This document shows positions 17,132 through 64,000 of a stretch of 64,000 nucleotides of DNA, one piece after another (the stretch's first letter is position 1; each line of letters opens with the position of its first letter). The notes below the pieces were generated by a model, which was not told where the DNA came from, made no database searches, and saw only the letters and a list, made by a program, of their open reading frames with translations. Source of the DNA: Turritopsis dohrnii (Eukaryota; Cnidaria; Hydrozoa; Anthoathecata; Oceaniidae); assembly GCA_027922465.2 (NCBI GenBank), contig BQMF02000676.1, positions 62,001 to 126,000 of the forward strand. The letters are read 5' to 3'. The position numbers were made by a program, and so were the translations under genes.

Positions 17132-17590
17132 GGCTTTCAGGCACTCAGAGAAGAAACAATCCTACAGTATCATCAAATCACAATGCAAAAACAAAAACAA
17201 GAACCCAGTAGGCGCATGCGCTGTGCAAACACTTGAAGTTGAAATACTCCGACAGGTAATCCAGAAAGCACCGCTGCGCTCACATTAGCAGTGAACCATC
17301 TCAACTCCTGTATCAGAACACGATGACTCTCCGCCAGAGTAATGCTAACACGATCAGTTCAGCAATAAATAGATCACCACCTCCGATCTTCACCACCATC
17401 TTCACAGTTTCTTCCTGCAACTTTTTTTCTTTTTTTCTAACAAGTATGAAAATATTAAAGTCTGGTCCGTAGAAACTGCTTATAAAGAAATCCGTCCCCA
17501 ATATTGCTAATAATCCATAGGAAGCTATATTGATCTTGGAATAAATTGAGCGTCCAAACGTTGCATAGAACGACAAGAAAAATCATCGTA
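17132..17590. other. Spacer
   Basis: This stretch lies between the Gypsy relic and the 3' flank of secreted unit A. A minus-strand 87-codon frame (17313-17576) has no recognisable feature. Nothing else is supported. Confidence 0.4.
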
Positions 17591-18075
17591 AGTTCAGCTT
17601 CACTTGCAACACTTTATGTCCGCAGCTTTTTTCAAAGTAACGAAAAAAAATCGCACCTTCCGTAACATTTTCTTCCCATAAGAATTTCTAAGCAACTGGA
17701 GATTGTTCGATCATTTATCACCTGATGATTTCTGCTAGACCTCATAAAAAACCCTTTTTATTCTTTCTATTTGAGATTTATCAAAATGGAAATGATTTTA
17801 CGGTAATTAAAACTCTTGGAATATTGATTATTAAAGGTATCCTTTTCAGAGGAAAAGGAAATAAACAAGTGTTGCAGTTATCTTTTTATCATCATTAAAT
17901 GCAAAGAAAGTCACAAGTTTTGTGAACATAAAGGCAACCCGAAGAACAGATCTTGTATAGATCAAAAATAACATTTTACCACAAAGATACTTTCAGAAGT
18001 TCAAAAAAGCAACGACTGTTTTGGAACAAACTGGAACGTTGAAAATATGAGAATTTCAGCATGCTGAGTATCTGT
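17590..18075 (-). other. 3' flank of unit A, shared with unit B and partly unit C
   Basis: Strings around 17695-17825 (ATCATTTATCACC, TTTCTATTTGAGATTT, AAAATGGAAAT) recur in order at 22805-22900 downstream of unit B. Weaker matches occur at 29630-29780 downstream of unit C. The duplicated block therefore extends several hundred bases past the coding region. No poly(A) site was assigned with confidence. Confidence 0.55.
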
Positions 18076-19389
18076 CTATGGAGCTTGATCAGAAGAATAG
18101 ATACCACGGGTAGTTTCTTTGTACGTTTCGTGGTATTTTGTTGCAAATGTTTTAGAATCGGTTGTGAGGTCGTTTCGGGTAACTTTGTGGTTCCGATTTG
18201 GATGATATGTCAGCATGGGATCATAATAATCACCAATGTCATTATTAGTCTGTGAATACCCGGGACGAATATTTCCAGGTGCATTGAACAGACAGTGGCA
18301 TACGTAGTCGATATCATTAGCCAAAGTAGCACCGTTAATCTGTCCTCTAAAATTCGAGGTCGGTATGTCACTTACGTATTTTTTGCATAGGTCCAAGTTA
18401 GCGTTTGTATATTTAATGAAGTCCTATGAAAAAAATAAGAATTTAAAGCAAAGTTGATTTCTTATCGAATTTCAAATCCTGACATTGAATATAATAATAG
18501 CAATAGCTATTAATGACTGCATGTCAGCCGACATTGGTTCGCATTCAAATGATAACTACTTTGTACAAATCTGCTGCAGGTTTATTTTTCTCAGATACAG
18601 TTGGACTGTTGATGACTTAGATGTACGTAACGATGTGACTTTCGGATTACACAAAGCAAAGGGTTTTGTTGAATGGAACTAGCGTAACTTAATGAGTGAG
18701 AATGTCTATTCTAAATCGTAACATTTCTTTGGCGCGGTTCTTTTTTCTCGAAAATTATGTGTAAATAGGACAAAACCAATGACGCAAAAAGTTCGTCTCA
18801 GTAACAATTTTTGTCTGTTATGTTCCTGTTTGAAGCCAAAAGAAAAAAAACCAACAGTATAATTGTTTTAAAAGTAAATGAACAACTACGTGAGATTTTG
18901 AAATTCTTGAAATTTCCCTTTTCTGTATTAATAATAGTGAGAATGAGTAAAGTATTACTGCTAAAGGTTCCAATCCTACATAGTTTCTAGTTTTGATATA
19001 TATTTAATCAATATACTTACTTGTTTGTTTTGCAACTTTTTATAACCAAAATATTCTTTATCGATACTATGAAGGTCAAACGCAAGACTATTTACCACTT
19101 TTTTCCAGTTATGGATGTGTGTTTCGTAATTGGTCCAAAGTCTAGGAAAATTGTTAAGTATCTTTGCTTTGATCGTAACGTAAGGTATGCGATGTGCTCT
19201 GCTATAAGCACCTTTGTTAATCCCCATATCTTTAGCCATCATGTCCATTGCATTTTTAGCATTTGAATTCCATTTGTCCTGTCCCCAACTACTATAAGAG
19301 CATTTTCCACTCAAGTGCTGATATGGTTGCAGAGAATAAACATTTTTGATTATCGATATTGTAAAAAGTATGAGGAGTACACGAGCCAT
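18076..19389 (-). CDS. Secreted-protein family, unit A (two coding exons, apparently intact)
   Basis: The coding exons are 19389-19021 and 18423-18076, joined in phase 0 across a 597-bp intron (donor CAA|GTAAGT, acceptor TTTTTTCATAG|GAC), giving 238 residues. I chose the ATG at 19389 because the acceptor TTTAG lies two bases upstream and paralogues in units B and C start at the same place. The longer open frame to 19515 is intronic. Residues 1-19 form a signal peptide (MARVLLILFTISIIKNVYS), so the product is probably secreted. The mature part has LQPYQ, Cys30, AHRIPY (65-70), NNFPRLW, WK, Cys136, CHC (165-167), NAPGNIRPG (170-178), DIGDYYDPML (185-194) and SSDQ near the end. Four cysteines would allow two disulfides. 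I do not recognise the family. The paired His/Arg and Asn motifs could form a catalytic site, but that is speculation. Confidence 0.8.
18424..19020 (-). other. Intron 2 of unit A
   Basis: A 597-bp intron without an evident mobile element. A segment near 18770-18870 (CTCAGTAACAATTTTTGTCTG and flanks) recurs in the introns of unit B (about 26690-26800) and unit C (about 33700-33830). This shows that whole genes, introns included, were duplicated. Confidence 0.65.
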
Positions 19390-20147
19390 CTCTAAAGATA
19401 AAACGATTATGTCTCGTGATATATTCAGAGTAAGAACATTGCTTACATCTCCTTCTGAAAAGTTATCAGATAGAAAAACAACATGGAAAACATTTAACGT
19501 TAGGAGCGAAAGCAAACACCTTACTAGAACACCTTTGGAACACTCCTTTGTCTACTGCCGGACATAGACTGCCGTAACTTAACAAAAGAAAGTGAGTGAC
19601 ATACCCGTAATTTTGAAGAAATTGCAAAAAAGTGAAAAATGAAAATCCTTGCCATCATCAGAACTTTCTGGAAACGTTCTGTTACTTTTTTAGCTTACTT
19701 TTAAGACCAAAAAATCGAACCACTAAAGAGTGCCATTTATCCAAAAAAAACATTTCATGCAAATACTCGGTTTTTCAAAAATTGTCATTTTTTTCCTTTT
19801 GCGAAGTTACGACATTCTATGCTACATAGATTCTAATGAAGGAATGCAGGCTTTATAATTTCGGTTTTATATATCGAACATTTAAGAATACACGTTCCTT
19901 GATATTTTATCACTTGATTCATGAAGGAATGGTTGTTATTGAAATAGGTCTACATAAAATTAGGGCTTTCAGCTACTTTTACTTACTGAAAACAGCTACA
20001 TTGATATTTGAAATTCGATGTAACTAGCTATGTAAAAGATATCTCACTTGCGGTAAACAAGCTTTAACGAACTTCTTGATCGTTCTCCTATAAGAAAGCT
20101 TTTATGCTGAAATTGGAGAAATTGAGAAAAGGAAATGAAATTCTTAC

Positions 20148-20198
20148 CTCTGCTTGATCAACGTTCTTTTGAGAATTACCAGAACGAACACTACTGAT
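20148..20198 (-). other. Non-coding first exon of unit A (3' end at 20148)
   Basis: The donor GAG|GTAAGA is at 20148/20147. The intron ends at the TTTAG two bases before the ATG at 19389. The upstream end is only an estimate, about 30 bases below the TTTAAAAG box. Units B and C have donors at the equivalent position. Confidence 0.5.
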
Positions 20199-20220
20199 CC
20201 CCATCTGCCATGTTGTGGGC

Positions 20221-20273
20221 CTTTTAAAGCATTAAAATTTTCGCGGACAGGAAATGTATTCATTTTGATTGGG
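20221..20273 (-). promoter_or_regulatory. Unit A promoter: CCAAT box, GTCCGCG motif, TATA-like box
   Basis: In the direction of transcription: CCCAATCAAAAT (20273-20262), CTGTCCGCG (20250-20242), then CTTTAAAAG (20229-20221). The first two motifs recur at exactly the same spacing upstream of units B and C, while the sequence between them differs. Confidence 0.6.
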
Positions 20274-20279
20274 TGATGA

Positions 20280-21428
20280 GAAAAGTCAGGCGGAAATGCA
20301 AAAAATGTACCATATTTTTCCGGCTGGCCTACGAATCAAATAATACCATGCCAAGTTCCGGGATTTTGGTGAAGAAAAATTACGTTTATAACTTAAATGA
20401 AAAACCAACTTTTGGGGACATGGGGACAAAAACTGTGTCAATGCAGAAAAGTTTGATTGTTCAACATTTTGTCAAAAATGTGTAGTTATCTGATTAAAGT
20501 CTAAATATGAAAAGAATTTCGATCTCATGGAACATGAAATCAACAATGTAGAAAGACCAGCCTCTAGGAATTATCAAAAAAAGTTTTCAATGGAAACTGG
20601 TTTAAAGAAAAAAAAGTGAAAAAATAAAACCTTTTTTACTCTAACTTCAATCTAGTAATACTCCGTAGCTTGGCCAACACACGCTACACCATTTGAGCAG
20701 ACGGAGATTTCTTCTTCTGAGATAGCATCACAGCTATGTTGGGTGAATTTCTAAAATAAAGCCAAAATGGTTCCAATAGAGTCTGCTACAGGACCTTTGG
20801 TCAATAACATATCACTCTTTTATTATTGTTATTATCATTATCACGAATTTTTATACAGGATGGCCAATCTCAAAAACTAGAAATATTACACTATATACTT
20901 ATTTACAAATTTCTGTTGTTATGTGGGTCCTGCAAATGTATCGAATAAAAAAGAGAAAGACTAAAAATCACATATAAAGACATCTTAAAACAAAGTAAAA
21001 GTATATAAAAAAAACACGATAAAAGCATGTACGTTAAGACATGTAGCATAAGGACAAAACAAAAAGATGTCTACAAACCCAAAGAACAAATGATAAGGAC
21101 TGAGAAGTTAAAACTTCAGGTGTTAACTTCTATGTTGTCGAAAAAAAAATTAATTGAAAGGAAAGGAAAGAACGGGATTTGAGCAGTAAGTTTAGCCGTA
21201 TCGAGGAGCTGCAATACGGCTCAAAACTTTTGGTTATATAACTCGTATCATCATTGATCAAAAGGAGCCGATTTTTGGGCCGTAAAGAAGAACAATAGAG
21301 GTTATTACGATTTCCGAGATTACCCGAAATGCAACACGATCAGCAATCTTGGTAGACCTTGGTAGTAAAGTAAAAAGCTATCAACTGCGTACTGTGTGTG
21401 GCTGTAGTTTTTTTGTAGTGTTTGTGGT
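20280..21428. other. Spacer between unit A promoter and transposase relic
   Basis: No gene is supported. A 70-codon plus-strand frame begins at 20273 inside the promoter region and has no recognisable feature. Confidence 0.4.
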
Positions 21429-22287
21429 GTGCATTTTATTGGTGGCTCACCAGCCAATGCTTTGGATGAAACCAATCCCTATTGGGTCTCGTCACTAAAG
21501 TTGGGTTATGTAAAAAGTAGTGACCCACAAAATGTATCTAGTAGTAGTGCTAGTGGTGGTAGTGCTGTTAGCAGTGGTAGTGCTGTTAGTAATAGTAGTC
21601 TTGCTAGGTATGAAAGATGTATTGGTAGAAAGAAGAGGGTATATGAAAGGGATATGGAAGTAGCTGTAAAATTATCAGAGTGTAGTTTTGCAGAAGAAAG
21701 TGCAGTTGTTGATGATGATGGTGGTGTGGTTGATGATGATGATGGTGGTGTGGTTGATGATGGTGATGAGGTTGATAGTGTAGTAGTGAGTAATCCTGGT
21801 AATAATGTAGATTCTGTTGTGTTAAGGAAACAAGATGAAGAGCTTAAAATGCTACGTATGGAAAATGTCTCTTTGCAAAGAAAGGTTTACTTACTTAGTA
21901 AAGCTGTTGACACAGTCAGGTTGCTTGATGAAAGGGATTATCGATTTGCTGTATGTCAATTTGAAGCCAGCAATATTTTGGCCACATCGAGATGATTTTG
22001 TTAAATCAATGCCGATGGTTTTTCGTGAACATTTTGGTCGTAAAGTTGCTGCAATTATTGATTTTTTTGAGGTATTTGTTGGAAGGCCATCAAATCTTTA
22101 TGCAAGAGCTCAAACATGGTCTAACTACAAGCACCACAACACCATCAAATACCTTATCGGAATCACACCACAAGGCTCAATAAGCTTCATATCAGATGTT
22201 TGGGTTTGCAGTTATAGCTTACCTAAAATTTGCGATTCAAATGAGGGGCCAACAAATTATGCGCTAATGCACAAAAAGACATATTGA
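21429..22287 (+). pseudogene. THAP/DDE_Tnp_4 transposase relic (ISL2EU/Harbinger-like)
   Basis: The first frame (21429-21995) opens with HFIGGSPANALDETNPYW, which resembles the tail of a THAP zinc finger. A Ser-rich stretch, an acidic Asp/Val repeat and a coiled-coil-like segment ([19 protein letters not shown]) follow. A frame change near 21970 gives [16 protein letters not shown], then [40 protein letters not shown] and [14 protein letters not shown]. This is the start of a DDE_Tnp_4 endonuclease domain; the Asp of IIDFFE is the likely first catalytic residue. The helix-turn-helix region between the halves and everything after about 22210 are lost. The second and third acidic residues are missing, so the copy cannot be active. 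Confidence 0.75.
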
Positions 22288-23233: not shown

Positions 23234-23727
23234 TCAGGAGCGTAAATTGTACCTTATAGCAAAGGTTAAAGAATCGGACGTTAGATCATCACGGGTAATT
23301 CTTCTTCTGAAGACCCTATGTCTTTTAAGCATTGGGTCAAAATTATCGCCAATATCACCATTTCTTCCTGTGTGTCCGGGACGGATATTGCCAAGTGCGT
23401 TGTACATACAGTGACATAAGTCGTCGACTTCTCTGGCCATTATGGTACCTCTATTACCACGATTTGTGTTCGGTATTTGATCGACATAGCCTAAACACTT
23501 TCTTCTGTTCACGTTGGCCAACCGTTTAAATTCCTTGAACAGAAAAACACTTAAACAGAAACGCAGACTTGAATTTGCCGAAAGTGCTTATGGAATCGAA
23601 CAATTCTGATTTGTTTCTTTTGGACATTCTTTTGGACAGACAGTTTAATTCATCATCGGTAAATTTGCGCAATGTGGAAAATCAAGTTTTGAAGTCGTGT
23701 TGAGAACGGGCATATATAAGATAGGTT

Positions 23728-24803: not shown

Positions 24804-24825
24804 AATGCGATCGTACGATCGCATT
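24804..24825. repeat. Perfect 22-bp palindrome
   Basis: The sequence reads AATGCGATCGT followed by its exact inverse, with no spacer. It lies inside the 24331-26503 element and could be a protein-binding or cruciform site. Confidence 0.6.
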
Positions 24826-27419: not shown

Positions 27420-28172
27420 ATACATGTTTTTACAGACGAAACATTTTTTTTTCGCACATCAGTCGCGACAATGAACATTGGAAATTGCTAATAGCTTAAT
27501 AGAAATCTTACCTGTTTGTTCCTCACAGATTTATAGCCAACATACTGTGTATCGACTTATGTCGTTGACAAGGCTTCTCATTTTGCCTTTCCATGTTCGT
27601 ATATTTCGATCGTACGCTCTCCAAAATCGAGGGAAATTATTAATAATGATGTGTTTGATTTTAGCATAAGGTACCCGATGCGCTTTCACAGCATTATTGT
27701 TTCCCAAACCAGTAATCATCATTCTCATCGCGGTTTCGGTCCTTGGATACCACCTGTGCCTCCAGGAGCGTTTATTACATTTTCCTCTTAAGTACTCGTG
27801 TGGTTGACGGCATTGAATATATTTGAATATTAATATTGCAGAAAGTATTAGAATGAATCGAGCCATGTCTAGAGATAAAAAGATTCCAATTTTATGCCGA
27901 ATGTTTTGAAGGGCGTCTCATCCATGAAGTAATTTGCTATACTCAGAGTGAAAATGATGCCTGTGTCAACAATCATACTGTAAGAAGTTATCCGGCGCAT
28001 AAACAATATTAAGGATATTGTCGTTTGGGTATATTGTGGGTTTAAAGTCAGTGCTTTTCAAGAGATTGCAGCAACTAAGCCGGATAAAAATTTCTGTTAA
28101 TTGTTAAAATCCATTATGTTATCCATTTGTTATAACACACTAAATGGAAAAAGGAAAATGATATTCACTTAC

Positions 28173-28215
28173 CGCTTATTGAAGGAAGTTCCTTTCTTAA
28201 TTGTTAAAATCAACA
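28173..28215 (-). other. Non-coding first exon of unit B (3' end at 28173)
   Basis: The donor GCG|GTAAGTGAA matches the unit C donor GCA|GTAAGTGAA, with the same preceding sequence CTTTCAATAAGC or CCTTCAATAAGC. The 304-bp intron ends TCTCTAG two bases before the ATG. The 5' limit is not determined. Confidence 0.5.
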
Positions 28216-28267
28216 CACAGTGTAAATAAACAATGGACCATTTTTCATTCAGCGTACACAGAATCTG

Positions 28268-28300
28268 CGCGGACAGAAAATCAAAGAATTTTGATTGGCT
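28268..28300 (-). promoter_or_regulatory. Unit B promoter module: CCAAT box and GTCCGCG motif
   Basis: On the minus strand AGCCAATCAAAAT is followed by TTTTCTGTCCGCGCAGAT. The distance between the two motifs is the same 25 bases as in units A and C. No TTTAAAAG box is visible in this copy; GTTTATTTAC near 28231 is a weak substitute. Confidence 0.6.
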
Positions 28301-28973
28301 CTTTGCCGAACAATTTGTGGTTGTTTGAAGAAAGTTTTTTGAATCAGAATAAAAGTTTTATGAAATTTTTCGTCAAATGTTACAAAAACCATTAACCATT
28401 TAAAGAGTAGCAAAAACTAATACCTCAGTATTCTAACCTAGACATTTTTTCAAAGATGTTGAATGCATCAATATTATCATAGTTGTTGTCCCCGCAGTGA
28501 GCCTAAGCGCGAGAGGAGGCGTAAAGATTTCACGAGATAGACGGAAGTCAGTTTTCGATTTTGTTCATCATAATAATCTTCCGATTTTTCGTGTTGCTGT
28601 TACACACCAGTATTCACTAATTTTTTCCCCGTTTCAAAACATGATATTAATTTTGAAAGACCACTACCGTTTTGTGTCCTATGGATCTTGCTTATATTTA
28701 ATACTAGTACCTCAAGTAAAGGTTTTTTACGGGTTTTAATTTCGAAAACGATGTGCGCAAATCAGGTGTTGGAAATAGGTAATGAGAAATAAAATCACAG
28801 AAGTACAAACGGAAAGTATACCCATGTTTAGAGCGCGAAAAACAGATCAAAAAATGTATGGGATCTTTTCGCTATCAAGATATCAGCAATCAAAGATTTT
28901 GATGACAGTACCAAATAAAAATTAGGCCCAGAAATTTCATCACCCTAATCAAGTTTCAGCGTCTCAAACTCAT
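28301..28973. other. Spacer upstream of unit B
   Basis: No gene is supported. An 80-codon plus-strand frame (28497-28739) lacks recognisable features. Confidence 0.4.
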
Positions 28974-30545: not shown

Positions 30546-33500
30546 CTAAGCTCGCCATCGAGTGAAATCATCAGAAGATATGATATTCCGGTTCCTAATT
30601 CGGTAGTTTATATTGTAAGTTCTTGCAAAGTTTATAGAATCGGCCGTTAGATCAGCACGAGTTATTGTTCTTTTTACATCCCTATGTCTCCTTAACATTG
30701 GGTCATAGTAATTGTCAATATAGTGATTTCTTCCTCTGTGTCCGGGACGGATATTGCCAAGTGCGTTGTACATGCAGCGACATAAGTCGTCGACTTGTCT
30801 CGCCATAGTGGTACCGCTGTTGCCGCGACTTCTGGTCGGTATTTGATTAACAAAGCCTAAACAACGTGCCTTGTTCGCGTTGGCCTTCCGTATAAATATC
30901 TTGAACAGAAATAAACATAATTTAAAAAAGAAATTAATCAGAAATACAGATTTGAATTGATTTACTGATAATGCTTACAGAATCGAAAAATTCTAATTTG
31001 TGGAATTCCTTTACAAATTAGTATAAACTTTATAACACTACCATTTGATTCAAATTATCAATAATCTTGAGATCACTTTCCACCATGAAAATAAGTAAAT
31101 ACTTTTACGAATCGCAAAAGGTTTTTCTGTCTACTAAACGTAACCTCTAATTCATTTTACAAACGTCTTTGTCTTTTTTATATATTTGCATACGCTTTTT
31201 TCTATTTTTTTATTTTCTTCTATCTCTTCTATCTCTTCTTTCTTCTATCTCTTATCCTTTTCCATAATCATCATGTTGTATCATTCTGTTTCTCCTCTGA
31301 AGTTGGACGACGAACTTTAAAATTCTATTAAGAAGCAAGCTTTAAGCTACCTATTTTCTAATAGAAGGAATGGTCGCCACAAAGCACAAGCACTTTTTGA
31401 TTTGGTGGTTGTAAGATTAGATAAAGGCAAATTTACACAACATAAAGACTGAATTATTATTATTATTGACAATATTTATACAGCGTTTTTCGTCAGTTTT
31501 AAAAAACTGTTATAAATGAAATAGCTGTTTAAAATAATCAAAACTAAAAATGGCCAAAATTCAAATATATTAATCTAAAATTATAAAAATCTAAAATTAT
31601 CTAATAAAAAAAAACCAAGTTGTAAAAAAAATTGTTGTCATCGTAATTGAACTGAGATGTTTAGAAAAGGTAAAGAAAAGAGAAAAGAGGTTAAAGACTG
31701 AAATAGAGTACACACAAAATGAATAAAATGAGATTGAGTAAAACTAATAAAAAAGTAATAAATAAATGAGTAGATAAATAAATAAAATAAACAAATAAAT
31801 AAATAAATAAAAAATCAGTATAAAATGCATAATTAAAAACAATATTCTACGACAATGACGATGTACGTGATTAGCAAATCATTACGAAGTGTAGTTGAGA
31901 GCAAAGATTGTAAATTCCACTATCGAAAAACCATAAAATTACGAAGTAGAAATTGTTCAGGAGACAATTAAGTTCTATAAAATTTCCTAATTTCACTTTT
32001 AAATTTCATTATGTTATCTACGGTAACAAGATCATTTGGCAGTGTGTTATAAACTAAGGCACCTTGAAATTTGAACATTTTTCTGCCATTTTCCGTTTTC
32101 ACTTTTGGCAGTTTTAAACACTTTCCATTTCCACGAGTGCTCTTCCCATGTTGAAATACTTCGAAACATCCTTTAAAAATATCTGGAACTTGATGATGTA
32201 GCATTTTATGAACCAGAGTACATACTTGTTCAGAACATAGGTGTTTGATGCTTGGCCATTTATTCGATGAACGTTTCCCATAAACAATTTTGTGAACTCT
32301 GTCTTGAATCGACTGATACTTTTTGTTTATAACAGTTGAAGAGAGAGTTTCATTGTCACATGTCATCAACAATGGCAGAATCATTGATTTATAAATACAT
32401 TCGGCAGCATGTGGTGTCGTTTCGTGTCGAATACGTGATAATAATCTTACTCTAGAATTAACTTTCTTGCAAATTTTGTTGAAATTCAATTTGAAATTTA
32501 GTGAACAATCGATAACTGTTCCTAGGTATTCATACTTTTCAACAGTGTTAATCATGACATTGTTTGTGGAGATATTCAACTTTTCTGATCTTCTAAGCTT
32601 TTGTGGGGTGCCAAATAATACCGCTTCTGTTTTTCCGGGTTTTAAATTGATGATCAGGTCATTTTCATTGAGCCATTTGGTAACCTTCTGAAATTCATAA
32701 TTTAGAACATATTCGACATTCTTCGAATCGTTGTTACTATAAAACATGACCATGTCATCAGCATATAAAAGCATTTCTGTTTCTGTCAATTGTTGTGTAA
32801 TGTCATTGATATGGAGAGTGAACAGAAGAGGCCCAAGAATGGAACCTTGCGGTACTCCAGTTGTGATAAAATGACTATCAGACAAAGAATTTTCAAATTG
32901 AACACGTTGTTGTCTTCCAAAGAGGTAGTCAGTAAACCAATTCAATTCTTTTTCTTTTATTCCATAATGTGGTAGTTTCTGTAATAACGTAGCATGGCTA
33001 ACCGTATCAAACGCCTTTTTAAGGTCAATATATATAGCTCCTGTATATTGACCTCTGTCCATATTTTCTCTGATAAAATCTGTCAGATATGTTAGAGCAT
33101 GTTTCGTATTTCGTCCTTTTCGAAATCCAAATTGACGAGATGTAATAAGTTGGTTCGCTTCAAGATATTCGTACAACTGTTTATGTACAATGCGTTCTAA
33201 AATCTTTGATGTTATCGGTAAAACTGATATTGGACGGTAATTATCAAATTCTGAATGACTTTCGGATTTATATAAAGGAGTAACTTTACCAAGTTTTTCC
33301 TCGGTAGGAAACGTCGACTCTGCTAGGGAACGATTTATCAGGTGACATAGTACAAATGCTATTTCTTCAGCACCATCTTTAACTAAATCTGGCGGTATTT
33401 GATCGATACCAGCTGATTTTCCTTTTTTAATTTGTTTTAACTCCTTCAATACATCTTTCAGCTCAACTTCTTTGAAACAAAACTGTTTGTTTTCGGGATT

Positions 33501-36500: not shown

Positions 36501-36958
36501 CCTGATGCGGAAATTGTTCAAGCCCTGAGGCTTCTAGTTTTGATTAAACTGTCAATTTTAATATCTATCTAATAATAATAATAAAAAGTTACCTGTTTGT
36601 CGTTTCCCCTCAAGGATTTATAGCCAACATACTGTGTATCGACTGTATGCATGTCATTGATAATCCCTCTCATTTTGTCTTTCCATGCTCCAATGTTTCT
36701 ATTGTACCCCTCCCATAATCGTGGGAAATCAGTAACAATAATGTTTTTTAAGGTTGAGTAAGGTACCCGATGTGCACTTTGCCAATTTCTGACATTTAAC
36801 CCATTAGCCATCATAGTCATCGCCCTGTTAGTTTCTTGTTCCCAGGGCCACCTCCAATTGGCTACTCTACATTTTCCGTTTAAATATTGATATGGTTGGA
36901 GACATTGCACACACTTGAATATCAATATTGCAAAAAGCATTAGAATAAATCGAGCCAT
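30546..36958 (-). CDS. Secreted-protein family, unit C (two coding exons, apparently intact)
   Basis: The coding exons are 36958-36593 and 30899-30546, joined in phase 0 (donor CAG|GTAAC, acceptor TTCTGTTCAAG|ATA), giving 239 residues. The start follows TCTTTAG|GC by two bases, as in units A and B. Residues 1-19 form a signal peptide (MARFILMLFAILIFKCVQC). LQPYQYLNGKC, AHRVPY (62-67), TDFPRLW, WK, DTQYVGYKSL, then Cys, LCRCMYNALGNIRPG, YYDPML, DLTADS and an Arg-rich tail follow. Compared with unit A, the last exon reads YIDNYYDP where A has DIGDYYDP, so the Gly of that motif is missing here. The 5.7-kb intron holds a LINE reverse transcriptase, a palindrome and a MITE, all within spliced-out sequence. 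Function unknown; secretion is the only firm prediction. Confidence 0.8.
31756..31812. repeat. (TAAA)n-type microsatellite at the LINE 3' side
   Basis: Imperfect AAAT/TAAA repeats lie about 150 bp beyond the stop codon of the minus-strand reverse transcriptase. Short tandem repeats are common 3' ends of non-LTR elements, so this may mark the element's tail. The exact junction is not resolved. Confidence 0.45.
31968..33692 (-). CDS. Non-LTR retrotransposon reverse transcriptase (CR1/Jockey-like), 5'-truncated
   Basis: A 574-codon open frame on the same strand as unit C and inside its intron. Visible RT blocks in order are GKSAGIDQIPPDLV near residue 94, FDNYRPISVLPITSKILERI near 150, FGFRKGRNTKHAL near 190, YIDLKKAFDTVSH near 222, TGVPQGSILGPLLF near 280, LLYADDMVMF with the YADD catalytic pair at 310-313, and LNxxKT-type and YLG blocks. 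The C-terminal thumb region is present. No apurinic endonuclease domain precedes it. At about 33695 the sequence passes straight into intron sequence shared with unit B, so the insertion is 5'-truncated. The frame has no internal stop, which suggests a fairly recent insertion. The methionine given as start is arbitrary. Confidence 0.85.
   Translation of the reverse strand: MYFLFEGGQRETYNICCVYYETKISNGFCKFFTDIGKNLQSAAIFINDRIWKDNKQLGNNLIRINPENKQFCFKEVELKDVLKELKQIKKGKSAGIDQIPPDLVKDGAEEIAFVLCHLINRSLAESTFPTEEKLGKVTPLYKSESHSEFDNYRPISVLPITSKILERIVHKQLYEYLEANQLITSRQFGFRKGRNTKHALTYLTDFIRENMDRGQYTGAIYIDLKKAFDTVSHATLLQKLPHYGIKEKELNWFTDYLFGRQQRVQFENSLSDSHFITTGVPQGSILGPLLFTLHINDITQQLTETEMLLYADDMVMFYSNNDSKNVEYVLNYEFQKVTKWLNENDLIINLKPGKTEAVLFGTPQKLRRSEKLNISTNNVMINTVEKYEYLGTVIDCSLNFKLNFNKICKKVNSRVRLLSRIRHETTPHAAECIYKSMILPLLMTCDNETLSSTVINKKYQSIQDRVHKIVYGKRSSNKWPSIKHLCSEQVCTLVHKMLHHQVPDIFKGCFEVFQHGKSTRGNGKCLKLPKVKTENGRKMFKFQGALVYNTLPNDLVTVDNIMKFKSEIRKFYRT
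33922..34056. repeat. 135-bp dispersed repeat, inverted copy at 62290-62432
   Basis: Shared strings include ATTCAATTTCCGCGC, GGAAATTGTTTG, CATTCTA, TTTTCGGAAAGTCCGTTCGG and ATTTCGGATTGTTTGT. CAATTTCC and GGAAATTG form a short hairpin at one end. It is probably a SINE or MITE fragment. No polymerase III boxes were recognised. Confidence 0.65.
34703..34856. repeat. Perfect 63-bp inverted repeat with a 28-base centre; hammerhead-like cores
   Basis: The arms 34703-34765 and 34794-34856 are exact inverse copies. The centre contains TCTTCAGCTGAAGA, itself palindromic. On the plus strand CTGAAGA (34775-34781) is followed by a predicted 8-bp stem, TGTTACCG/CGGTGGCA with an AGTA loop, and then TGAAAC. 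That is the order of a hammerhead core (CUGANGA, stem II, GAAA). GTACGGATAAAC follows, comparable to GTACTAAGATAATAAAC after the candidate ribozyme at 58988. It lies in the intron of unit C. Cleavage activity is inference. Confidence 0.6.
35332..35730. mobile_element. 399-bp MITE with CTTAAGGGGATTTTTTTTGCG ends, in unit C intron
   Basis: The right end, on the other strand, is TACCTTAAGGGGATTTTTTT. The left end is TACGCTAAGGGGATTTTTTT. Both continue into GCGTGGA, and the interior repeats AAATCCACGCAAAA. It shares TACCTTAAGGG and similar length with the MITE at 51243-51651. Confidence 0.75.
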
Positions 36959-37179
36959 GCCTAAAGATAAAAAATATGATCTATAACTAATACATTGAAG
37001 GGATCATACAATTGACTTGATATATTCAGGGTGCACTTGTGATCACGTTGTAAGAGGTCATAATACATGTCGCTTGGATGAACATTTTGTGTACTTTAGG
37101 TTAATGCTTTTCAATGTTAAAATCTGTTAGTTTTAGTGTATATCACACTGAGTAAAAAAAAGAAATTATATTCACTTAC

Positions 37180-37225
37180 TGCTTATTGAAAGGAGTTCCT
37201 ATCGCAGTCGTCAAATCCAACAACA
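37180..37225 (-). other. Non-coding first exon of unit C (3' end at 37180)
   Basis: The donor GCA|GTAAGTGAA is preceded by GGAACTCCTTTCAATAA, near-identical to unit B. The 219-bp intron ends TCTTTAG two bases before the ATG at 36958. The transcription start was not determined; the TTTAAAAG box lies about 70 bases upstream of the donor. Confidence 0.5.
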
Positions 37226-37248
37226 AGACGTGTCAAGCACACTTCGAG

Positions 37249-37331
37249 CTTTTAAAGAGAAAAAAAGAATGGGCCGTTTTCCATTAAGCGTTAACATCTG
37301 CGCAGACAGAAAAACTTTGCATTTTGATTGG
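37249..37331 (-). promoter_or_regulatory. Unit C promoter: CCAAT box, GTCTGCG motif, TTTAAAAG box
   Basis: On the minus strand GAGCCAATCAAAAT (37331-37321 core) is followed by TTTTCTGTCTGCGCAGAT (from 37314) and, further down, CTTTAAAAG (37257-37249). The CCAAT to GTCTGCG spacing equals that of units A and B; the TATA-like box lies about 30 bases further away than in A. Confidence 0.6.
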
Positions 37332-38042
37332 CTCCTTGGAAAAGTCAGAGGCTAATATTTAAATTTTCATTGGCCGAAAAGTTAGTTATTAAAAGGAAGG
37401 GAATCACCATCTTCAAATACTCTGCTGATTGGAAAACAAAGGTCGCACGAAAAGATTGTCAGTAGTTGTTCTCAGGGAATCTTCATGAAAATAAAGTAAC
37501 GTTTATGGTTTTCAACACTCGTAAGTTTTGAAACTTTTGTCTTCAGTTTGGTCTTTTTTCCCAAAGTAAAAATCATAACCAGTAACGTCAACAAAATGAA
37601 CGAATCGGAAAAAAAATGTTGATTGAATTGAATTTATTTTTCATCTCACTTTTTTCTCTCGTGAGCATAAAGAGGTTTTGATAAACAGCATTTTGTGGTT
37701 GTTTGAGGAAATTTGAAAACATTTATCAACTACAATTTTTAATCTAGTGTGACACTAACAAAATACGACATTCACCTTTTCGGAATATGTGAAAGTAGTA
37801 CCACCAAGCACTTTCATCTATACACTTTTGAAAGATGCTTAGTGTCTCAACGCTATTATTGTTATTTTTGGCATTGCGTTTATAAAATGCATGGTTTTAA
37901 ATCACATGGATTTTTGATCAGCTTTTCGAGCTCTACAACATGGATACACTTACCAGTCACAACTCCGTGATTTAATTTTTAATCACGGGGTACACACACG
38001 GGAACGCGGGATTTCCGCACATTCTTTTACGCGAGTTGCTAG
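37332..38042. other. Spacer between unit C and the Helitron array
   Basis: No gene is supported. Just before the array, TCCGTGATT and AATCACGGG form a hairpin (about 37965-37988). AGCTCTACAACATGGATACAC near 37928 is a scrap of Helitron interior, so a degraded copy probably preceded the first full unit. Confidence 0.45.
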
Positions 38043-56391: not shown

Positions 56392-56394
56392 AAA

Positions 56395-57916
56395 AAACTC
56401 AAAAGGCAAAAAAAGAGTAAAACGATTAACTTAAAGACTTCAGGTAACCAAGAAAAGAAAGTTAAGCAAATTCTCAAGTCTCTTAAAAGTAGAGGTTGTT
56501 TGTCTATTAAAACGTATAATGATTTAAGCCCTGTAGGATCCAAACTAGGTGTTTTATATGGTTTGTGTAAAGTTCATAAGAAACTGATCGATGGATGTCC
56601 ACCTTTTCGACCGATTTTATCAGCCATCGGCACTCCTACTTACAAATTAGCCAAATTTTTAGTACCTTTGCTATCTGGTATAACTACCAACGTATTCACA
56701 GTTAAAGACTCTTTTTCGTTTTCTTCAGAAATAATTGCACAGGACTCTAACCTTTTTATGGGCAGTTTAGATGTTGATTCTTTATTTACCAATGTACCTC
56801 TAGAAGAAACTATTGATATTTGTACTGACAAACTTTTTGAAAATATTGAGAAAGTTAATGGTTTATCAAAGAGTGATTTTAAATCTTTATTATCATTAGC
56901 TACTAAAGAATCTCATTTTATGTTTGATAATGAGTTTTACCAACAGATTGATGGAGTGGCCATGGGTTCTCCCCTAGGTCCCACCCTAGCTAATGCTTTT
57001 TTGGCACACTATGAAAAGATATGGTTGGAAAACTGTCCTCTTGAATTCAAACCTGTTTTTTATAGTCGTTATGTTGACGATATATTTGTTTTATTTAAGT
57101 CAGCCGATCATTTGCCCCTTTTTAAAAATTATTTGAACACTTGTCATGATAGTATTTCTTTTACTTCTGAGTCTGAAATGAATAATAAGATGAGTTTTTT
57201 AGATGTTGAAATTTTTCGAGATAACAAACTCTTTTCCACATCTGTTTATAGAAAGCCCACTTTTAGTGGCGTTTACACACACTATGACAGTTTTTTACCT
57301 TCAGTGTTTAAATTTGGTATGATTTACACTATAATATATAGATGTTTGCTCTAGTTACAGTAATTTTCACTTAGAACTTGGAAAAGTTAAAAGTATTTTT
57401 AAGAAGAACGGTTATCCACTTTCCTTTATTGACCGTTGCATCAAAACATTTTTAGACAAGTTTCACACTCCTAAAGTCACCGTTAGTACAACTGAGAAAA
57501 AATCTCTTCTCATTGTTCTTCCATATCTTGGTCCCATTTCGGACCAAATAAGAACTAGTCTTTACAAAATTATTTCAAAGAATTTATCTTGTTGTAAAGT
57601 TAAATTAGTCTTTAAAGCCTCGTGCAGACTATCTAATTTTTTCCACTTTAAAGATCGTCCTTGCAAAGATCTTATTTCTGGCATTGTTTACAAGTTTTCG
57701 TGTGGTTGCTGCAATGCTTCCTATATTGGCCAAACTAAGCGCCATTTTAAAGTCAGAATGAGTGAGCACATGGGCATTTCTGCACTTACTGGCAAAGCTA
57801 CTTCGAGTGGAATTCTCACTGCTATCCGCCAACATGTGTCTACTTCTGGACACCCGGCTGGTTATGATGCATTTAGCATTCTTGCTCACGCCAATAGTTC
57901 ATATTTATTACGGTAG
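56395..57916 (+). pseudogene. Penelope-like element: reverse transcriptase plus GIY-YIG endonuclease
   Basis: An open frame to 57354 (284 codons from the first ATG at 56500, but clearly coding from about 56440: KKVKQILKSLKSRG) shows LGVLYGLCKVHK, PFRPILSAIGTPTYKLAKFL, GSLDVDSLFTNVPLEETIDI, DGVAMGSPLGPTLANAFLAH, FYSRYVDDIFVLF with the YVDD catalytic pair, MSFLDVEIF and YRKPTFSGVY. A one-base loss near 57345 shifts the frame. The next frame continues to a stop at 57914-57916 and contains the GIY-YIG nuclease (SGIVYKFSCGCCNASYIGQT, KRHFKVRMSEH). The N-terminus and the last residues of the nuclease are missing. RT plus C-terminal GIY-YIG is diagnostic of EN-positive Penelope-like elements. The single frameshift suggests it is much younger than the relic at 12 kb. 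Confidence 0.85.
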
Positions 57917-58987
57917 CAGCGAAGCGAATACCCTATTAAAACACCCTTGGACTACTCCTCCTCCTCCTCCTCCTCCTACTGCCGACCGAAATGACAGTTT
58001 AGCCTGTGCAGTCTGCCAATGTCAATTCCGAAACTGCGTAAATTGCAACTAAAGAACGGAGGCTAATAATAACTATCAAAACATTCTTTACATATAAGTT
58101 ATTTTAGTATTTTACCATAGATTCGCCATTAAATAAACATTTTCCTATTAAAAACACGGTGGGGAACTTTAGTTGCACCTAATTTGAAACACGGTTAAAA
58201 TAAACTTAAGATTTTGTTTTTGGTTAACATCTTGTGCTTCGAAGTTCGAAGCTCTCTTCTTCTTGCCTGCAGTTACAAAGATTCATTGAAATTCATCGAA
58301 CTTAAACTTTTTAAAAGCATTTTACATTTTTTTATATTTCGTACGTGTGTATTTTGTTTGCTTGTCTACAAAAATGTCTTGGATTAAAGTTTGAAACGGT
58401 TTTACTTTGTTTCTTATATTTTTAGAAAACGTTTGCTTTTTTTCTCTTTTCGGTCTTACATAGCTTTCTTTTTATAAAAAACTCTGATATAAAAAAAACA
58501 TAGTTTCATGCATTGTGCATATTTCTTTTGTTTGTATCATATAGTTTTCTGGTGGTTTTAGTTAAGCCCTGTTCACACTTTTTCAAATGAAAATTGCCAT
58601 TAATTTAAGCCTAGGAGATAAACAAAGGTCGACAAAGCTTCATGGGGCTTTCAGATTAATTAATTTAGAATCTATTTAGTTTTGTACATTGCGAGTTGAA
58701 ATGCTGCTACCGTTTTGTGCCATATGGCTCTTGTTAGAACTTAAAGAGTCTCTTTTTATTTTACGAGAAAATCCGGTTCTAAACCGGACTATACGTTCTG
58801 CTCCACTGTATCTTTATAATTAGCTTCCTTTTTTCTTTTTTCTATCACGCTTGTTAATTTTTTTTCTTTACTTATTTATACTCCTTTGAGATTGTTTTGT
58901 ATGTATTAGTTCCTTTTATGGAAAAGATTTATCACTTCACGACACTTATATTTTTGTATAAAAGAGCTATACATTGTATAAAAATCT
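57917..58987. other. 3' region of the Penelope-like element and spacer
   Basis: A CTC triplet repeat (57955-57976) gives a proline run in one frame. The remainder is AT-rich and non-coding. The element probably extends through here to the hammerhead-like tail at 58988. Confidence 0.4.
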
Positions 58988-59026
58988 GTACTTGATAATG
59001 GGCGTTGAACGCTCGAAACGTCGTAC
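58988..59026 (+). ncRNA. Hammerhead-ribozyme-like motif at the Penelope-like 3' end
   Basis: The order is GTAC, TTGATAA, a stem GGGCG/CGCTC with a TTGAA loop, GAAAC, GTC and GTAC. The flanking GTAC copies can pair as stem I, and GTC would be the cleavage triplet. The CUGANGA box is changed to UUGAUAA, so activity may be lost. Hammerhead motifs in the terminal repeats of Penelope-like elements are established. Confidence 0.5.
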
Positions 59027-59559
59027 TAAGATAATAAACTTGGATGTGTCGAAGAAACTTGTCGTTTTGTTTTTGTTTTGTTTTTATTCCTTGTATTAAA
59101 AAGATAATTGGATTTTTTCATGGTTAAATCCTTAATTGTTTCCAAACTAAAAAGTTTTGGAGAACAAAATGTATATTAAAATCTATGAATAAAATCCTAT
59201 TGAATGGTGTAAAAATTACTGAAATCTGATATATGTGTGAATAGTTATGAGCTGTTAAAATCTCAGACCGAAATTCTCTGGGACACACTGTAGTCTGTTT
59301 TTAAAACACTAAAAAGCTATAATTTGGAGTAAAGTATTAAAGAAAACTTCCTTGAGGAGGCTCCGACCCCTAAAACCCCTGCTGGTGGGCTTAGAGCCCC
59401 CGCGACCCCCGACTCAAAATATTTTCTCGCTCGCTTTGCTCGCTCCAATTTTTTTAGCCCCCTCAATATTTTTGAAGAAATTACGGCCCTGAGTTTTGGT
59501 CTGATAAGCTTTCTCAATAGCACATAAATTAAAAGATATAAAACATAAAAAATGCGACC
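59027..59559. other. Spacer with a GC-richer low-complexity patch
   Basis: At about 59345-59480 there is a patch rich in CCCC and GCTCGC repeats (TTTCTCGCTCGCTTTGCTCG), unlike its AT-rich surroundings and probably a dispersed repeat fragment. No gene is supported. Confidence 0.4.
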
Positions 59560-59853
59560 ATTAGGGAGATTCGTAAACTCGACGAGCCTGTTACACGAAA
59601 AAAATCAATTACTTGTGAGAATTTTTTTGAAACTGTTCTACTAAAACGGTACTTCAGAGATTTAAAGCCTTTTGTTGTATCAAAAGAAACATCATTACTT
59701 TGCACGTTTATTTCAAGTGTTAATGTGAAGTTTCTAATGACTTTGTAGGGAAAAATTCACGAACAACTCTACTAAGTTGTATACAATTCCCTACAAATCT
59801 ATGGAAAAATAGTTTCGTGTAAACGAAACATGATTTTTCCGAATCCCGCTAAT
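59560..59853. mobile_element. 294-bp MITE with ATTAGGGAGATTCG ends
   Basis: The left end is ATTAGGGAGATTCGTAAACT. The right end, on the other strand, is ATTAGCGGGATTCGGAAAAA. The terminal match is about 14 bases, with weaker pairing inward. It has no coding capacity. Confidence 0.6.
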
Positions 59854-59985
59854 AGTGTGTTTTAAAACGGGGGTTGAACATATGATTCTATAGAAAAGTG
59901 GAACAAAGATTATTTTATCCATAATTTGCTACATTGTGTCCTTTAAAAAACCTTGTTCTTGAAAAACTGTATATAATAAAGGATA

Positions 59986-62085
59986 ATGAGTTATTTCAGA
60001 AACGCAGTATCTAAATTATACAACGCTGTTTCATCGCCTGTTACAGCAACTCGTGATGCACTCGCAGATCGATTGCAGAAGATTCGCGAGTCGGTTACTT
60101 CTTTTTATAATCAGACTAAGGAGAGGCTAGGCTATGGGCAGTCACCACTGATTTCGGCTGTTGAACGCCAAGCTATGAGAGAAGAGGAGGCAAGCATGCA
60201 AGATATCAAGCATCTGTTTGTCACTCCTTGGGAACAGCCTAATGACGCTGCACTCGAAGATATTCAGGAACTCTTCGTCAAGTACGACACACGAGTGTTA
60301 GAATATGGAAATCGGGTCAAGACTTGGCGGTTTACCAAGAATCTTAACCGATCCTTAGCAGATGCTATTATGCGGAAAATAACACGGCATATAGACATGA
60401 GAGTCAATTTCGTCTACTAATTTATCTGCGATATATATGATAGTGATGGTGGAGTTACGCCCTATCCAAAAACGAAAGGATCTAAAATTTCACTTACAAG
60501 CCTGCCAGAGATCGAAGCATTCATAGAGCGATGTGAGAACCATGACGATCATGAATTTTGGTCCAAGGCTTACTTGCCACAGGAGAGGACTATCGAGTCA
60601 CCTTAATCGTATGAAGGTAAGGTTGTGTTCGGCCATGTGCAGATCAAGATCATAGTTACTAGAGAGCCGTTGTTAGGTTGTGGACCATTACCAGATTGGC
60701 TACGAAAGAAACGTTGCACCTTCGCTGTAGACAGTAAACACGAAAGAATCGACAACTTGTGCATGTGGCGATGTTTAGCAATCTACACGAGACAGGGAGA
60801 AAGAACGAGGCTGTGAATTTCTTACAAAGGAAGCCCTTAGATTGGTTAGAGACTACCATGAGCAACCGAAGCTAAAGCGAAAGGATGTGCGCGGAACAAA
60901 ACTAATGAACATCGAAGGCATTGCGAAGCATTTTAACCTAAATATTAGAGTGTATGAGCCAAAGGCAAACGCCGACAAGGCACCTTGGAGACTCGTGTAT
61001 GGTCAGAAGCAACACAAGCAAGGACTAGATACCATCAACCTTGGAATGCTATACGGAAATTGCTTCTACATCAATGATTTGGATGTTCTCAGCAAAAGCT
61101 GGGAATGCGAAGCTTGCAAACAGGTGTTTACAAGAGTCGCTACACTCACCCGACACAAGGAAAAAGAGTGTGAGGGAGCAAAAATGAATATCGTTTGCAA
61201 AGGTGAGAAAGTAACACGGTTAGTAAGCAAGGCGGAGCTAGTGTTTTACGGTAAAGACATTAGCTATAACGCATGCCGCGAGAGACGGGAAGACACATAC
61301 ATGCTGTGACTCTGCGGACATGGTGGAGAACGAGTAATACGGGTGGAGGTCAACAAAACGGTCTACGAGTACAACGGTTGTAAATGGCATGGCTGTCCTT
61401 GTCAAGGGGGTGGAAACCCACATCGGTATGAGCGAACACAAGCCAAAGAAGCAAGCATAAGAGAGCTTGGATACAAACTTGTGTCAGTATGGGAATGCGA
61501 GAATCCACCAAAGGTCGAGCAGTACTTCAAGAAAAGTTTACACCATATCCTCACTAGATAGTGTTTGAATTTGAAGCTCTATTGGCAGGCTTAAACCAGC
61601 AGCAAACAGATGATCTCAAGTACACTTCGAGACACATACCAGTTAGTGTTTCGATTCACGATAGTTTGAATGCAGAACCGGTGACGTTTCTTGTGCATGA
61701 AGATGCCCAGGTATTGATCGAGCGGTTTGTGATAGAGCTAGAAAGGAGACCAGCGCTCATTGTAGCCGAAATAGAGAGAATGTACCCGAGACCTGAAGAT
61801 TTTCATATGCTCCCGAAAATGACGCAAGATAAGTGGGATGAATGAGTAAACCAAGTCGCAGTCATTGGCTTCAACAGTGGTAAATACGATCTCAACTTGA
61901 TCAAGCGGTATTTCGTCGAAGAAGTCGCAAAGGTTGAAGACAAGTCGATCATGGTGGCAACGAAGGATAATAACTACATGTACTTGACCCCAAGGAAATT
62001 CAAGTTTCTCGACATCAAAAACTTTATCGCTCCACACATGAGTTACGAAGAATGGTGTAAGTTGTTACAAATTGTCCAATTTTAG
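59986..62085 (+). pseudogene. Maverick/Polinton-type protein-primed DNA polymerase B, N-terminal half, broken
   Basis: The first frame (59986-60420) reads MSYFRNAVSKLYNAVSSPVT, a helical basic N-terminus. After an in-frame stop at 60418 the same frame continues (EIEAFIERCE, FWSKAYLPQERT). Further pieces are NLCMWRCLA near 60760, VRDYHEQPKLKRKDVRGTKL at 60842 onward, and a C2H2-like finger, CEACKQVFTRVATLTRHKEK, near 61105-61165. A YEYNGCKWHGCPC...VWECE block (61360-61500) resembles a Vsr-like nuclease fold. The 3'-5' exonuclease start follows, with FEFEALLAGL (ExoI position) at 61563 and GFNSGKYDLN (ExoII type) at 61866-61900. It stops before the palm, so no polymerase active site remains. 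At least four stops or frameshifts are present. No capsid, ATPase or integrase genes are visible, so this is a fragment. Confidence 0.7.
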
Positions 62086-62275: not shown

Positions 62276-62289
62276 TTCCTATTCCTTTT

Positions 62290-62432
62290 GTCTATTCTAT
62301 TCTGAATAGACAAACAATCCGAAATCCGAACGGACTTTCCGAAAACGACTAAAAACAGTGACAGAGATAGATACTTAGGTAGAATGTGTAAACCAAACAA
62401 TTTCCTACGCTATAAGCGCGGAAATTGAATAA
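62290..62432. repeat. Inverted copy of the 33922-34056 repeat
   Basis: It reads as the reverse complement of the intronic copy in unit C, with the same hairpin-forming CAATTTCC/GGAAATTG end at the right. Confidence 0.65.
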
Positions 62433-63298
62433 GGCTTAAGGATAGTCATCACCCCTTGCTGCATGTTTTCAGTTTTGTGTCCTTAACTTTTGATGTGGTT
62501 ATTTTTTCATCAACAAAGTATATATTTTTGAAAACCTTATAAAATTCCCGATCTAATGAATATAATTTTATTTTCAATATTTAGTAATTTAGTAATAATT
62601 TAGTTTTAAAAAGTTATTGCGGATAAGGGCATTTTGAAAATGCTTAATTTCTAGGAGCTCCACGGACCCTTTGAAAAATATTTTCTGCGACATTTTTATG
62701 TCATTGTGTTCTATGTTTACTAATTTAAAAAAAGTTACTACAGTTTTTCTAGTCCTAGTTCTGATGAAATAAAAGATTTACGAAAAACACTCATTAAAAT
62801 AGCCTTTCCTTGTCTTTCTTCCTTCATCGCAGAGCAAATATTTGCTTAAAGAAAAAATTGTAGTAGCGTTTTGTTCTTATAAACCTATTCTTTCAATTGC
62901 AAAAAATTATGTAACGATACCTTCATCGTAGGGGCTTTTGGAGGTATTTAAAGACAGATAAGTAACGCAAACATACTTATCGAGAAAACGTCTTCCAAAG
63001 AAATTCCATTTTGCGATCAGTTGAATAAACCACTTTGCAAAAGAAACAATAGCTGTTATTTGCTAACATGAATAATTAATAAGTCTATTATTAAAAGAGA
63101 ACAAAGTTCTTGTAAACATGCTGAATAGGTTCTGTAAACAAATTGCAATAAGCATGAAATGAAATACCACTAAATTTAAAATATTGTACCAAATGATAAA
63201 TTTTTATAGCATCATACATTTTCAGAAAGCTCTCTGAAAGCTTTATCTTTTTATGAAATAAAAAAAAATTGACTATCCTTAACTAGAACTAACGGCGA
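62433..63298. other. Gene-free stretch upstream of the unit D flank
   Basis: No gene or repeat is supported. It is AT-rich with short open frames only. Confidence 0.5.
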
Positions 63299-63443
63299 GT
63301 ATTTGCTACAAGCAATATGCACAATGTGTGAACTGTAGCCATGGATGCGTATGTTTTATCAAAATAAGATTTGTTAAAGAAATTATGTAAGAGCCAAAAG
63401 AAAAATTTCCACTACAAACTGCGTTACAAACTTTGATTCAAAA
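63299..63443. repeat. Unit D flank repeat, second copy at 1654-1803
   Basis: See the entry at 1654. This copy lies about 350 bp downstream (in the transcription sense) of the unit D stop codon. Confidence 0.55.
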
Positions 63444-63787
63444 CAATATTCAAACTGTTCATAATTATTGAAATGGGAATTGAGAATAAAAGAGACTATC
63501 ATTAAGCTGTAAAGTAATGACATTAGTGGAACAATGAATCGCATAAAAACGAGGTTAGATATGAAACTCAGTCACAGTTCAGTGTTTAAAATGAATTTCG
63601 GGATAGGCCTAGCGGTTTGTCGATTGAATCACGATTCATTTCTGAAGTGAGTTTTAATTAAAAAAAGAAAACCTTGCAGATGAACTTTCGTATTTTGCCT
63701 CTCACGTCCGAAAAAAGTAATCAGTTCAGTATTGGATACCTCGTGAAACTGTTATGCCTCCTCGGTCGCTTATGCTCATTGCGGGGG

Positions 63788-64000
63788 TTATAACTTTTGA
63801 TCAGAGGAATAGATGCCATTTTGATGTTTCTTATAATCTAGGTGGTACTTCTCTTCAAATTTTAATGAATCCAGCGTGAGATCGTCTATGGTAACTCTTT
63901 CACCTGGCATACGGCGGCGATTGAGCATGGGATCGTAGTTATCTCCAATTACGTTATTAGTTTCTGGATATCCGGGTCGGATATTCCCGGGGGCGTTATA
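63788..64000 (-). CDS. Secreted-protein family, unit D (last exon, partial, cut by window edge)
   Basis: The minus strand from 64000 to the TAA at 63790-63788 is open for 70 codons. It carries the family signature YNAPGNIRPGY, NNVIGDNYDPML, DDLTLDS and NGIYSSDQKL. It is closest to unit A (IRPGY, IGD, IYSSDQ at the end) rather than to B or C. The CxC pair, the first coding exon and the promoter lie beyond the window. The frame has no defect in the part seen. Confidence 0.8.
   Translation of the reverse strand, partial: YNAPGNIRPGYPETNNVIGDNYDPMLNRRRMPGERVTIDDLTLDSLKFEEKYHLDYKKHQNGIYSSDQKL

Follow-up and report, generated by a model that had tools for sequence, protein, structure and literature searches.

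Within the 64,000 nucleotides of Turritopsis dohrnii DNA analysed here (the window, part of contig C676), the minus strand carries both coding exons of three units (A, B and C) and only the last exon of a fourth (D). The features are:

18076..18423, minus strand: unit A, last coding exon, stop included (CHC, NAPGNIRPG, YDPM, SSDQ)
19021..19389, minus strand: unit A, first coding exon (hydrophobic N-terminus, C30, SRAHRIPY, FPRLW, HxxD)
20148..20230, minus strand: unit A, probable untranslated first exon (donor 20147; start estimated; read by eye)
20227..20289, minus strand: unit A, upstream CCAAT-like block, CTGTCCGCG, common to B and C (E 8e-9 versus C, 2e-4 versus B)
23234..23533, minus strand: unit B, last coding exon, premature end
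27512..27866, minus strand: unit B, first coding exon, frame broken near 27557
28094..28305, minus strand: unit B, promoter-like block and probable untranslated exon (donor after 28173; E 1e-17 versus C)
30546..30899, minus strand: unit C, last coding exon, stop included
36593..36958, minus strand: unit C, first coding exon
37107..37348, minus strand: unit C, promoter-like block and probable untranslated exon (donor after 37180)
63788..64000, minus strand: unit D, last coding exon, stop included, truncated by the window end and running on to contig position 126129
G000:C676:129659 down to about 129306, outside the window, 3.3 kb beyond its end: unit D, first exon

Matches between units within the window reach 42–65% identity over 67–120 residues (E 4e-14 to 9e-39), which rules out chance similarity. 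The junctions between the two coding exons are in phase 0 in A, B and C. Homologous tandem copies carry both exons, in agreement with an earlier note that had proposed a tandem family with a conserved two-coding-exon core. The same note had described four units with a signal-peptide exon; the motifs, the strand and the two exons hold, but only three such exons lie in the window. AHR[IV]PY and FPR[LF]W occur there three times each (AHR at 19180, 27666 and 36758), and NAxGNIRPG four times (at 18259, 23375, 30741 and 63971). The GKC ascribed to the signal exon of all four units reads GTC in D, whose exon is outside the window, and the YDPM ascribed to the last exon is FDPM in B. Nor is B the equal of the other units: A and C are intact, whereas B has a disrupted first-exon frame and a premature end in the last exon.

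A promoter-like block, CCAATCAAAAT...CTGTCYGCG, is common to A, B and C. Duplication of introns, untranslated exons and flanks, also claimed previously, applies chiefly to the B/C pair, together with this block in all three units; no upstream similarity to A–C was found for D or for the C228 member. A gene of the array would probably have three exons: an untranslated one, one that opens the coding region with the signal peptide, and a final coding exon that follows it in phase 0.

We then looked at the genome as a whole. The exon-1 search found 29 places and a separate exon-2 search 37 (35 at E < 0.01), together on 19 contigs; in the 436 Mb genome, 37 places is a lower bound. Each of the 29 exon-1 places is followed, within 10 kb downstream on the same strand, by an exon-2 place. 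In 11 of the 13 closely spaced exon pairs, all of them paralogous places, the two halves form a single intronless open frame of 261–299 residues; one single-exon member is found at C59:586286–586894. A single-exon member (267 aa) used as a query gave 32 matches, including pieces of all four C676 units. These intronless paralogs lend strong comparative support to the two-exon core. Fully read members are 234–289 residues long, and one further member has a longer tail; for the C228, C15, C225, C330 and C14 members, exon junctions were placed by analogy with A–C. Some family places are near-identical copies on different contigs. In the family tree the deep forks are open and the branches long, and the intronless state may have arisen once or more often. 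Judged by sequence comparison, this is a genuine multigene family whose gene structure the comparison itself reveals, and the C676 array is one spliced branch of it. The family is therefore not merely local, as the window alone might suggest, and the place of the array within a genome-wide family had been overlooked.

Mobile elements abound in the array: the intron of unit C contains a reverse transcriptase frame (31968–33740), and a DDE transposase piece and more reverse transcriptase-like frames are found between units. This would suit the idea that the exons are not host genes but parts of a transposable element or an artefact of assembly. However, the exons match no transposon family, and no match to a transposable element protein, which the earlier note had named as the finding that would speak against its model, was found. 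The exons also keep their order at 29 of 29 places, the copies are diverged, constrained and few, and an upstream block is common to A, B and C. Such an origin is very improbable and largely refuted.

We estimated dN/dS at about 0.34 for A versus C and 0.51 for B versus C. Among 12 pairs of single-exon members, nine gave values of 0.18–0.90, one gave 0, and two were not computable. Taken together, these values indicate that the coding sequence is constrained overall. The description of the family as fast-changing is accordingly half right: divergence is present, but so is constraint. The array may have grown by tandem duplication, with divergence under real but modest constraint, while other branches would represent intronless copies that have themselves expanded.

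A hydrophobic, signal-peptide-like stretch is found by hydropathy only at the start of exon 1. On the same measure alone, the N-terminal peak is 1.67–3.38 in 16 of 17 members; the exception, J_C14 (0.77), has an unsure start codon. No second peak above 1.2 was found among the 17 members. Family members are probably secreted, and the near absence of N-glycosylation sites is an oddity for such proteins. The calculated pI, with 20 residues removed first, exceeds 8 in 11 of 17 members. For I_C225b, a His/Pro-rich tail was removed before the hydropathy, pI and invariant-residue counts. We infer that the mature protein forms a single domain, mostly helical and stabilised by disulfides, to which both exons contribute. 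AlphaFold runs on two single exons taken apart gave poor models (pLDDT 43 and 51), and these provide no fold backing for a site.

Searches for relatives agree with the earlier view that no known domain can be assigned. No match was found above the curated cut-offs of Pfam, NCBIfam and PHROGs; weak hits there involved one member each (best E 0.0058) and were below the cut-offs where these were shown. Against PDB sequences, a single-protein query gave no match, and three profiles gave first nothing and then uricases (E 0.19) and a kinase (E 0.54), both chance. One protein and two alignments were also searched against 5.8 billion proteins, of which those of 0.55–1.75 times the query length are considered; of the 74, 480 and 2250 word candidates returned, not one reached E ≤ 10. 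Scans of genome contigs and viral contigs revealed no relatives, and we found no paper for the family motif strings. The lack of relatives refers to the libraries named, which include no eukaryote protein database and no predicted-structure library.

Identity to unit A is 24–53% (14 members). Nevertheless, 14 residues besides the start are kept in all 17 aligned members (C30, F81, P82, H107, D110, C136, C167, N174, R176, P177, G178, P192, T210 and D235), including HxxD, NxRPG and three cysteines. The motif histidine H66, within [ACS]H[IVR][IVLM][PS][FYW], is kept in 16 of 17. The exception is I_C225b (L039/L040), in which H66 is replaced by Arg, position 183 is Ala, and D191 is replaced by Asn; in the other 16 members position 183 is Asn (12) or Asp (4). 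When sequences diverge this far, His, Asp, Asn and Arg residues that stay invariant are a typical mark of active sites. The invariant His, HxxD and NxRPG had been overlooked as a possible active site in the first reading of the window.

The unvarying residues suggest an unrecognised secreted enzyme. H66, H107xxD110, N174xR176PG and N/D183 would line one site, and the enzyme's target may be extracellular, with a role in defence, digestion or venom. The paralog that lacks the motif His and has Ala at 183 would then count as a pseudoenzyme; only this one paralog has lost both H66 and N/D183. Against an enzyme, no catalytic family was matched in Pfam, NCBIfam, PHROGs or the PDB sequences searched, and profile comparison with two nuclease families of the His type yielded nothing. 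The conserved polar residues may also be structural.

It is quite possible, at somewhat under even odds, that these are non-catalytic secreted proteins (matrix, mucus, adhesive, binding or toxin-like) in which the invariant residues serve the fold or ligand binding. The lack of a match to any enzyme family fits this explanation, the frequently basic pI, conserved cysteines and tandem arrays suit such roles, and one paralog (L039) bears the His/Pro-rich tail. HxxD, NxRPG and the near-invariant motif His nonetheless exceed what cysteines and a hydrophobic core would need.

A further explanation is a nuclease of the His-Me finger (beta-beta-alpha-metal) class, of EndoG/NucA type but very diverged, in which H66 would be the base, N183 the metal ligand and D191 the helix acid. 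The N-x2-P-x5-N-x7-D spacing in A–D and C228 corresponds to N-x2-P-x5-N-x7-E of EndoG chains, in which the residues presumably have these roles. The pattern N..P.....N.......[DE] arose in 1 of 20000 shuffles of the C676-invariant column string, a test devised after the motif had been seen. Also in line with it, the paralog without H66 lacks N/D183 and has Asn for D191. However, when the family was compared by hhalign with an EndoG motif alignment (4 rows, one a typed consensus), the probability was 0.5% and the wrong columns were paired. The distance from the His to the Asn motif is 108 residues in unit A versus 22 in the CG8862 chain, and all 17 members have a proline just after position 191, whereas the EndoG chains have none there. 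Pfam hits at E ≤ 10 for 10 members contain no nuclease; with the hhalign result, this leaves membership in Endonuclease_NS (PF01223) unsupported, and we rejected it. We regard the EndoG/NucA relationship as distinctly improbable. Membership in Endonuclease I (PF04231) was likewise rejected: the hhalign score of 11.7 is below the median of 13.1 for 60 column shuffles, and no Glu precedes the His in any of 17 members.

Overall, we suggest that the best explanation as a whole is a multigene family with a spliced array, encoding a secreted, disulfide-stabilised enzyme (probability roughly 0.4). A narrower version is unlikely: a eukaryote-lineage-restricted secreted enzyme family with a His/HxxD/NxRPG/Asn-or-Asp site, possibly a metal-dependent nuclease independent of the His-Me finger or diverged beyond it, with intronless radiations and at least one pseudoenzyme beside an intact paralog. 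If the proteins are enzymes, a whole secreted enzyme family has been missed by the domain libraries searched, and the invariant H66, H107, D110, N174, R176 and N/D183 offer direct mutants to test. Even if they are not, the spliced array and the intronless branches make a case for studying how an orphan secreted family originates, changes its introns, expands and decays, with the broken copy B standing between intact ones.

Many members of EndoG/NucA (PF01223) elsewhere are secreted. The window units resemble them in having a Pro three residues after the His, as in the typed consensus. They differ in the distant His and Asn motifs, in the proline after 191 and in the absence of DRGH, since Ala, Cys or Ser precedes the motif His in 17 of 17 members. 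We know of no counterpart in EndoG/NucA of the HxxD and cysteine pattern. With Endonuclease I (EndA/Vvn), some members share [x]H[VI][VI]P and a second D[LM]H about 36–41 residues later, but the residue before the His is never Glu. Lineage-restricted tandem families of cysteine-bearing secreted proteins occur in invertebrates. The present family shares with them a signal-peptide-like start, small size, tandem arrays, orphan status and copy birth and death (unit B), and departs from them in its many invariant polar, enzyme-like positions and its parallel intronless branches.

The exons of A and C were used as tblastn queries in the window, and contig C676 (168,288 bases), of which the window is 62001-126000, was also examined beyond it. 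We found the motifs of the earlier note on the strand and in the region it had named. The coding exons lie as follows (window coordinates unless stated).

19389-19021, minus strand: unit A exon 1
18423-18079, minus strand: unit A exon 2
27866-27558, minus strand: unit B exon 1, with the remainder in a different frame
23533-23249, minus strand: unit B exon 2
36958-36593, minus strand: unit C exon 1
30899-30549, minus strand: unit C exon 2
64000-63797, minus strand: unit D exon 2, cut by the window end
129659 to ~129306 of the contig, minus strand: unit D exon 1
126129 down to ~125788 of the contig, minus strand: unit D exon 2

With the remainder of the contig added, D is complete, so C676 carries four units, of which A, C and D are intact and B is broken; in the window itself D is truncated. 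Exon 1-exon 2 junctions are phase 0 in A, B and C (donors CAA/GTAAGT, CAG/GTAAGA and CAG/GTAACT, respectively; T-rich acceptors with TAG or AAG at their end), and two adjacent phase-0 donors are possible in D. By eye, A, B and C also have a probable untranslated exon whose end, at /GTAAG, lies ~220-760 bases ahead of the start codon. The same note held that introns, untranslated exons and flanks are duplicated as well. This is true of B and C, which are alike over long stretches, intron included (77% across 394 bases, 72% across 402), and of a CCAAT-like upstream block common to A, B and C (A-C, E 8e-9; A-B, E 2e-4; B-C, E 1e-17). However, A resembles B or C over shorter stretches, and no such block was found upstream of D or of the family member on contig C228.

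Mobile elements and repeats occur in and between the units. The intron of C holds a 590-residue open frame on the strand of C (31968-33740, minus; RVT_1 reverse transcriptase domain, E 1.3e-40) and, by eye, a long, near-perfect inverted repeat, GCATGAAACTATTAGTACGGATAAACTAAATCTCGTTTATTTACC (~34700-34870); the intron of B has many scattered GACTCCC/GGGAGTC words in both directions (~24340-26560, by eye). A DDE_Tnp_4 transposase piece lies between A and B (21408-22287, plus; E 3.5e-15), and reverse transcriptase-like frames lie between C and D (plus; 56377-57916, RVT_1 E 7e-10; 45694-47803, E 0.015). Clustered diverged repeats of families D1-D3, D5, D6, D8 and D12 (37911-42384 and 55499-55956) contain CTGTCTGTTTG runs and, in several copies, a GTCCGCGATACAGG core. 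A direct repeat of ~1.7 kb (48734-50413 and 52726-54412; 94.9% identity, ~4 kb apart) may stem from a recent duplication at this locus or be a non-autonomous element; the region 48001-56000 has no stop-to-stop frame above 99 residues. Elsewhere on the contig (contig coordinates), three minus-strand open frames (41704-60903) resemble a single kind of G-protein coupled receptor, a frame at 27507-28577 is exosome subunit-like, and large frames at the contig end (157947-168286) resemble a Polinton/Maverick-type element.

Across the genome (436 Mb, 891 contigs), exon 2 of A matched 37 places at E<=1 (35 with E<0.01), and exon 1 of C, searched separately, matched 29 at E<=0.1. Some of the places counted are near-identical to one on another contig (L031/L032, L035/L036, L038/L041, L039/L040, L047/L048) and are probably uncollapsed alleles. 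All 29 exon-1 places are followed downstream, within 10 kb and in the same orientation, by an exon-2 place. Of the 37 exon-2 places, eight lack a partner among the 29 listed; for three of the eight, a single-exon query spans exon 1 and exon 2 alike (C232, C59:433810, C59:550778). The halves are 440-5697 bases apart in 16 pairs and 40-151 in 13, and in 11 of these 13 close pairs both halves share a single open frame (261-299 residues); the remaining two (C229:421622 and C81:1044720) are broken. This pairing, together with the single open frames, is strong comparative evidence, at the sequence level, that exons 1 and 2 code for one protein. Searched back, a single-exon member gave 32 matches (weakest E 0.001), including pieces of all four C676 units.

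We aligned 17 members (A, C, D, C228, one of C15, two of C225, C14, one of C330 and eight single-exon), leaving out near-copies, B and places not read. In their unrooted tree, which has long branches and open forks, spliced and single-exon kinds are separated by one label change (support 76/77; 81% of 200 bootstrap trees). Intron loss via retrocopying in the single-exon kind would be likelier than intron gain. C30, F81, P82, H107, D110, C136, C167, N174, R176, P177, G178, P192, T210 and D235 are invariant, C165 is absent only from the C229 kind, and position 191 is D in 15 members and N in two. H66 is present in 16 of 17 and position 183 is N in 12 and D in four; the exception at both is one C225 paralog (R66, A183). 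This paralog (C225:334704-335688, with a near-copy on C329) has a His/Pro-rich tail and lies ~4 kb from a paralog with the motif His, and the two could be an enzyme/pseudoenzyme pair. The dN and dS values are 0.50 and 1.44 for A-C (dS near saturation) and 0.28 and 0.54 for B-C; among 12 single-exon pairs, dN/dS is 0.18-0.90 in nine, 0 in one and not computable in two. On these comparisons, we regard the genes, their membership in one family and their coding constraint as established.

Judging by the conserved cysteines and the hydrophobic N-terminus, the product would be a secreted domain with disulfide bonds. N-glycosylation sequons past the first 20 residues are depleted (3 versus 28.7 expected; 0 of 2000 shuffles as low), with the 17 members related rather than independent and shuffles as the only baseline. 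AlphaFold models, made exon by exon, are mostly helical and too poor for use. The first reading we put forward is a secreted enzyme (probability roughly 0.4), whose secretion, disulfides, site, catalysis and role are inferred; we give equal weight to a non-catalytic secreted protein.

The earlier note could not assign the family to a known domain; there were no accepted matches in Pfam, NCBIfam, PHROGs, PDB sequences, genome_contigs, viral_contigs or a 5.8-billion protein set, which is length-filtered and may lack a eukaryote family. Among known systems, two motif resemblances were pursued. Membership in Endonuclease I, the second of these, is unsupported by profile comparison (score below the shuffled median), as is membership in EndoG/NucA (probability 0.5%). 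A nuclease is possible, at a low probability. The likeness to EndoG/NucA nucleases lies in motif spacing: units A-D and C228 share N-x2-P-x5-N-x7-[DE] with them, an arrangement reached by 1 of 20000 shuffles in a post hoc test.
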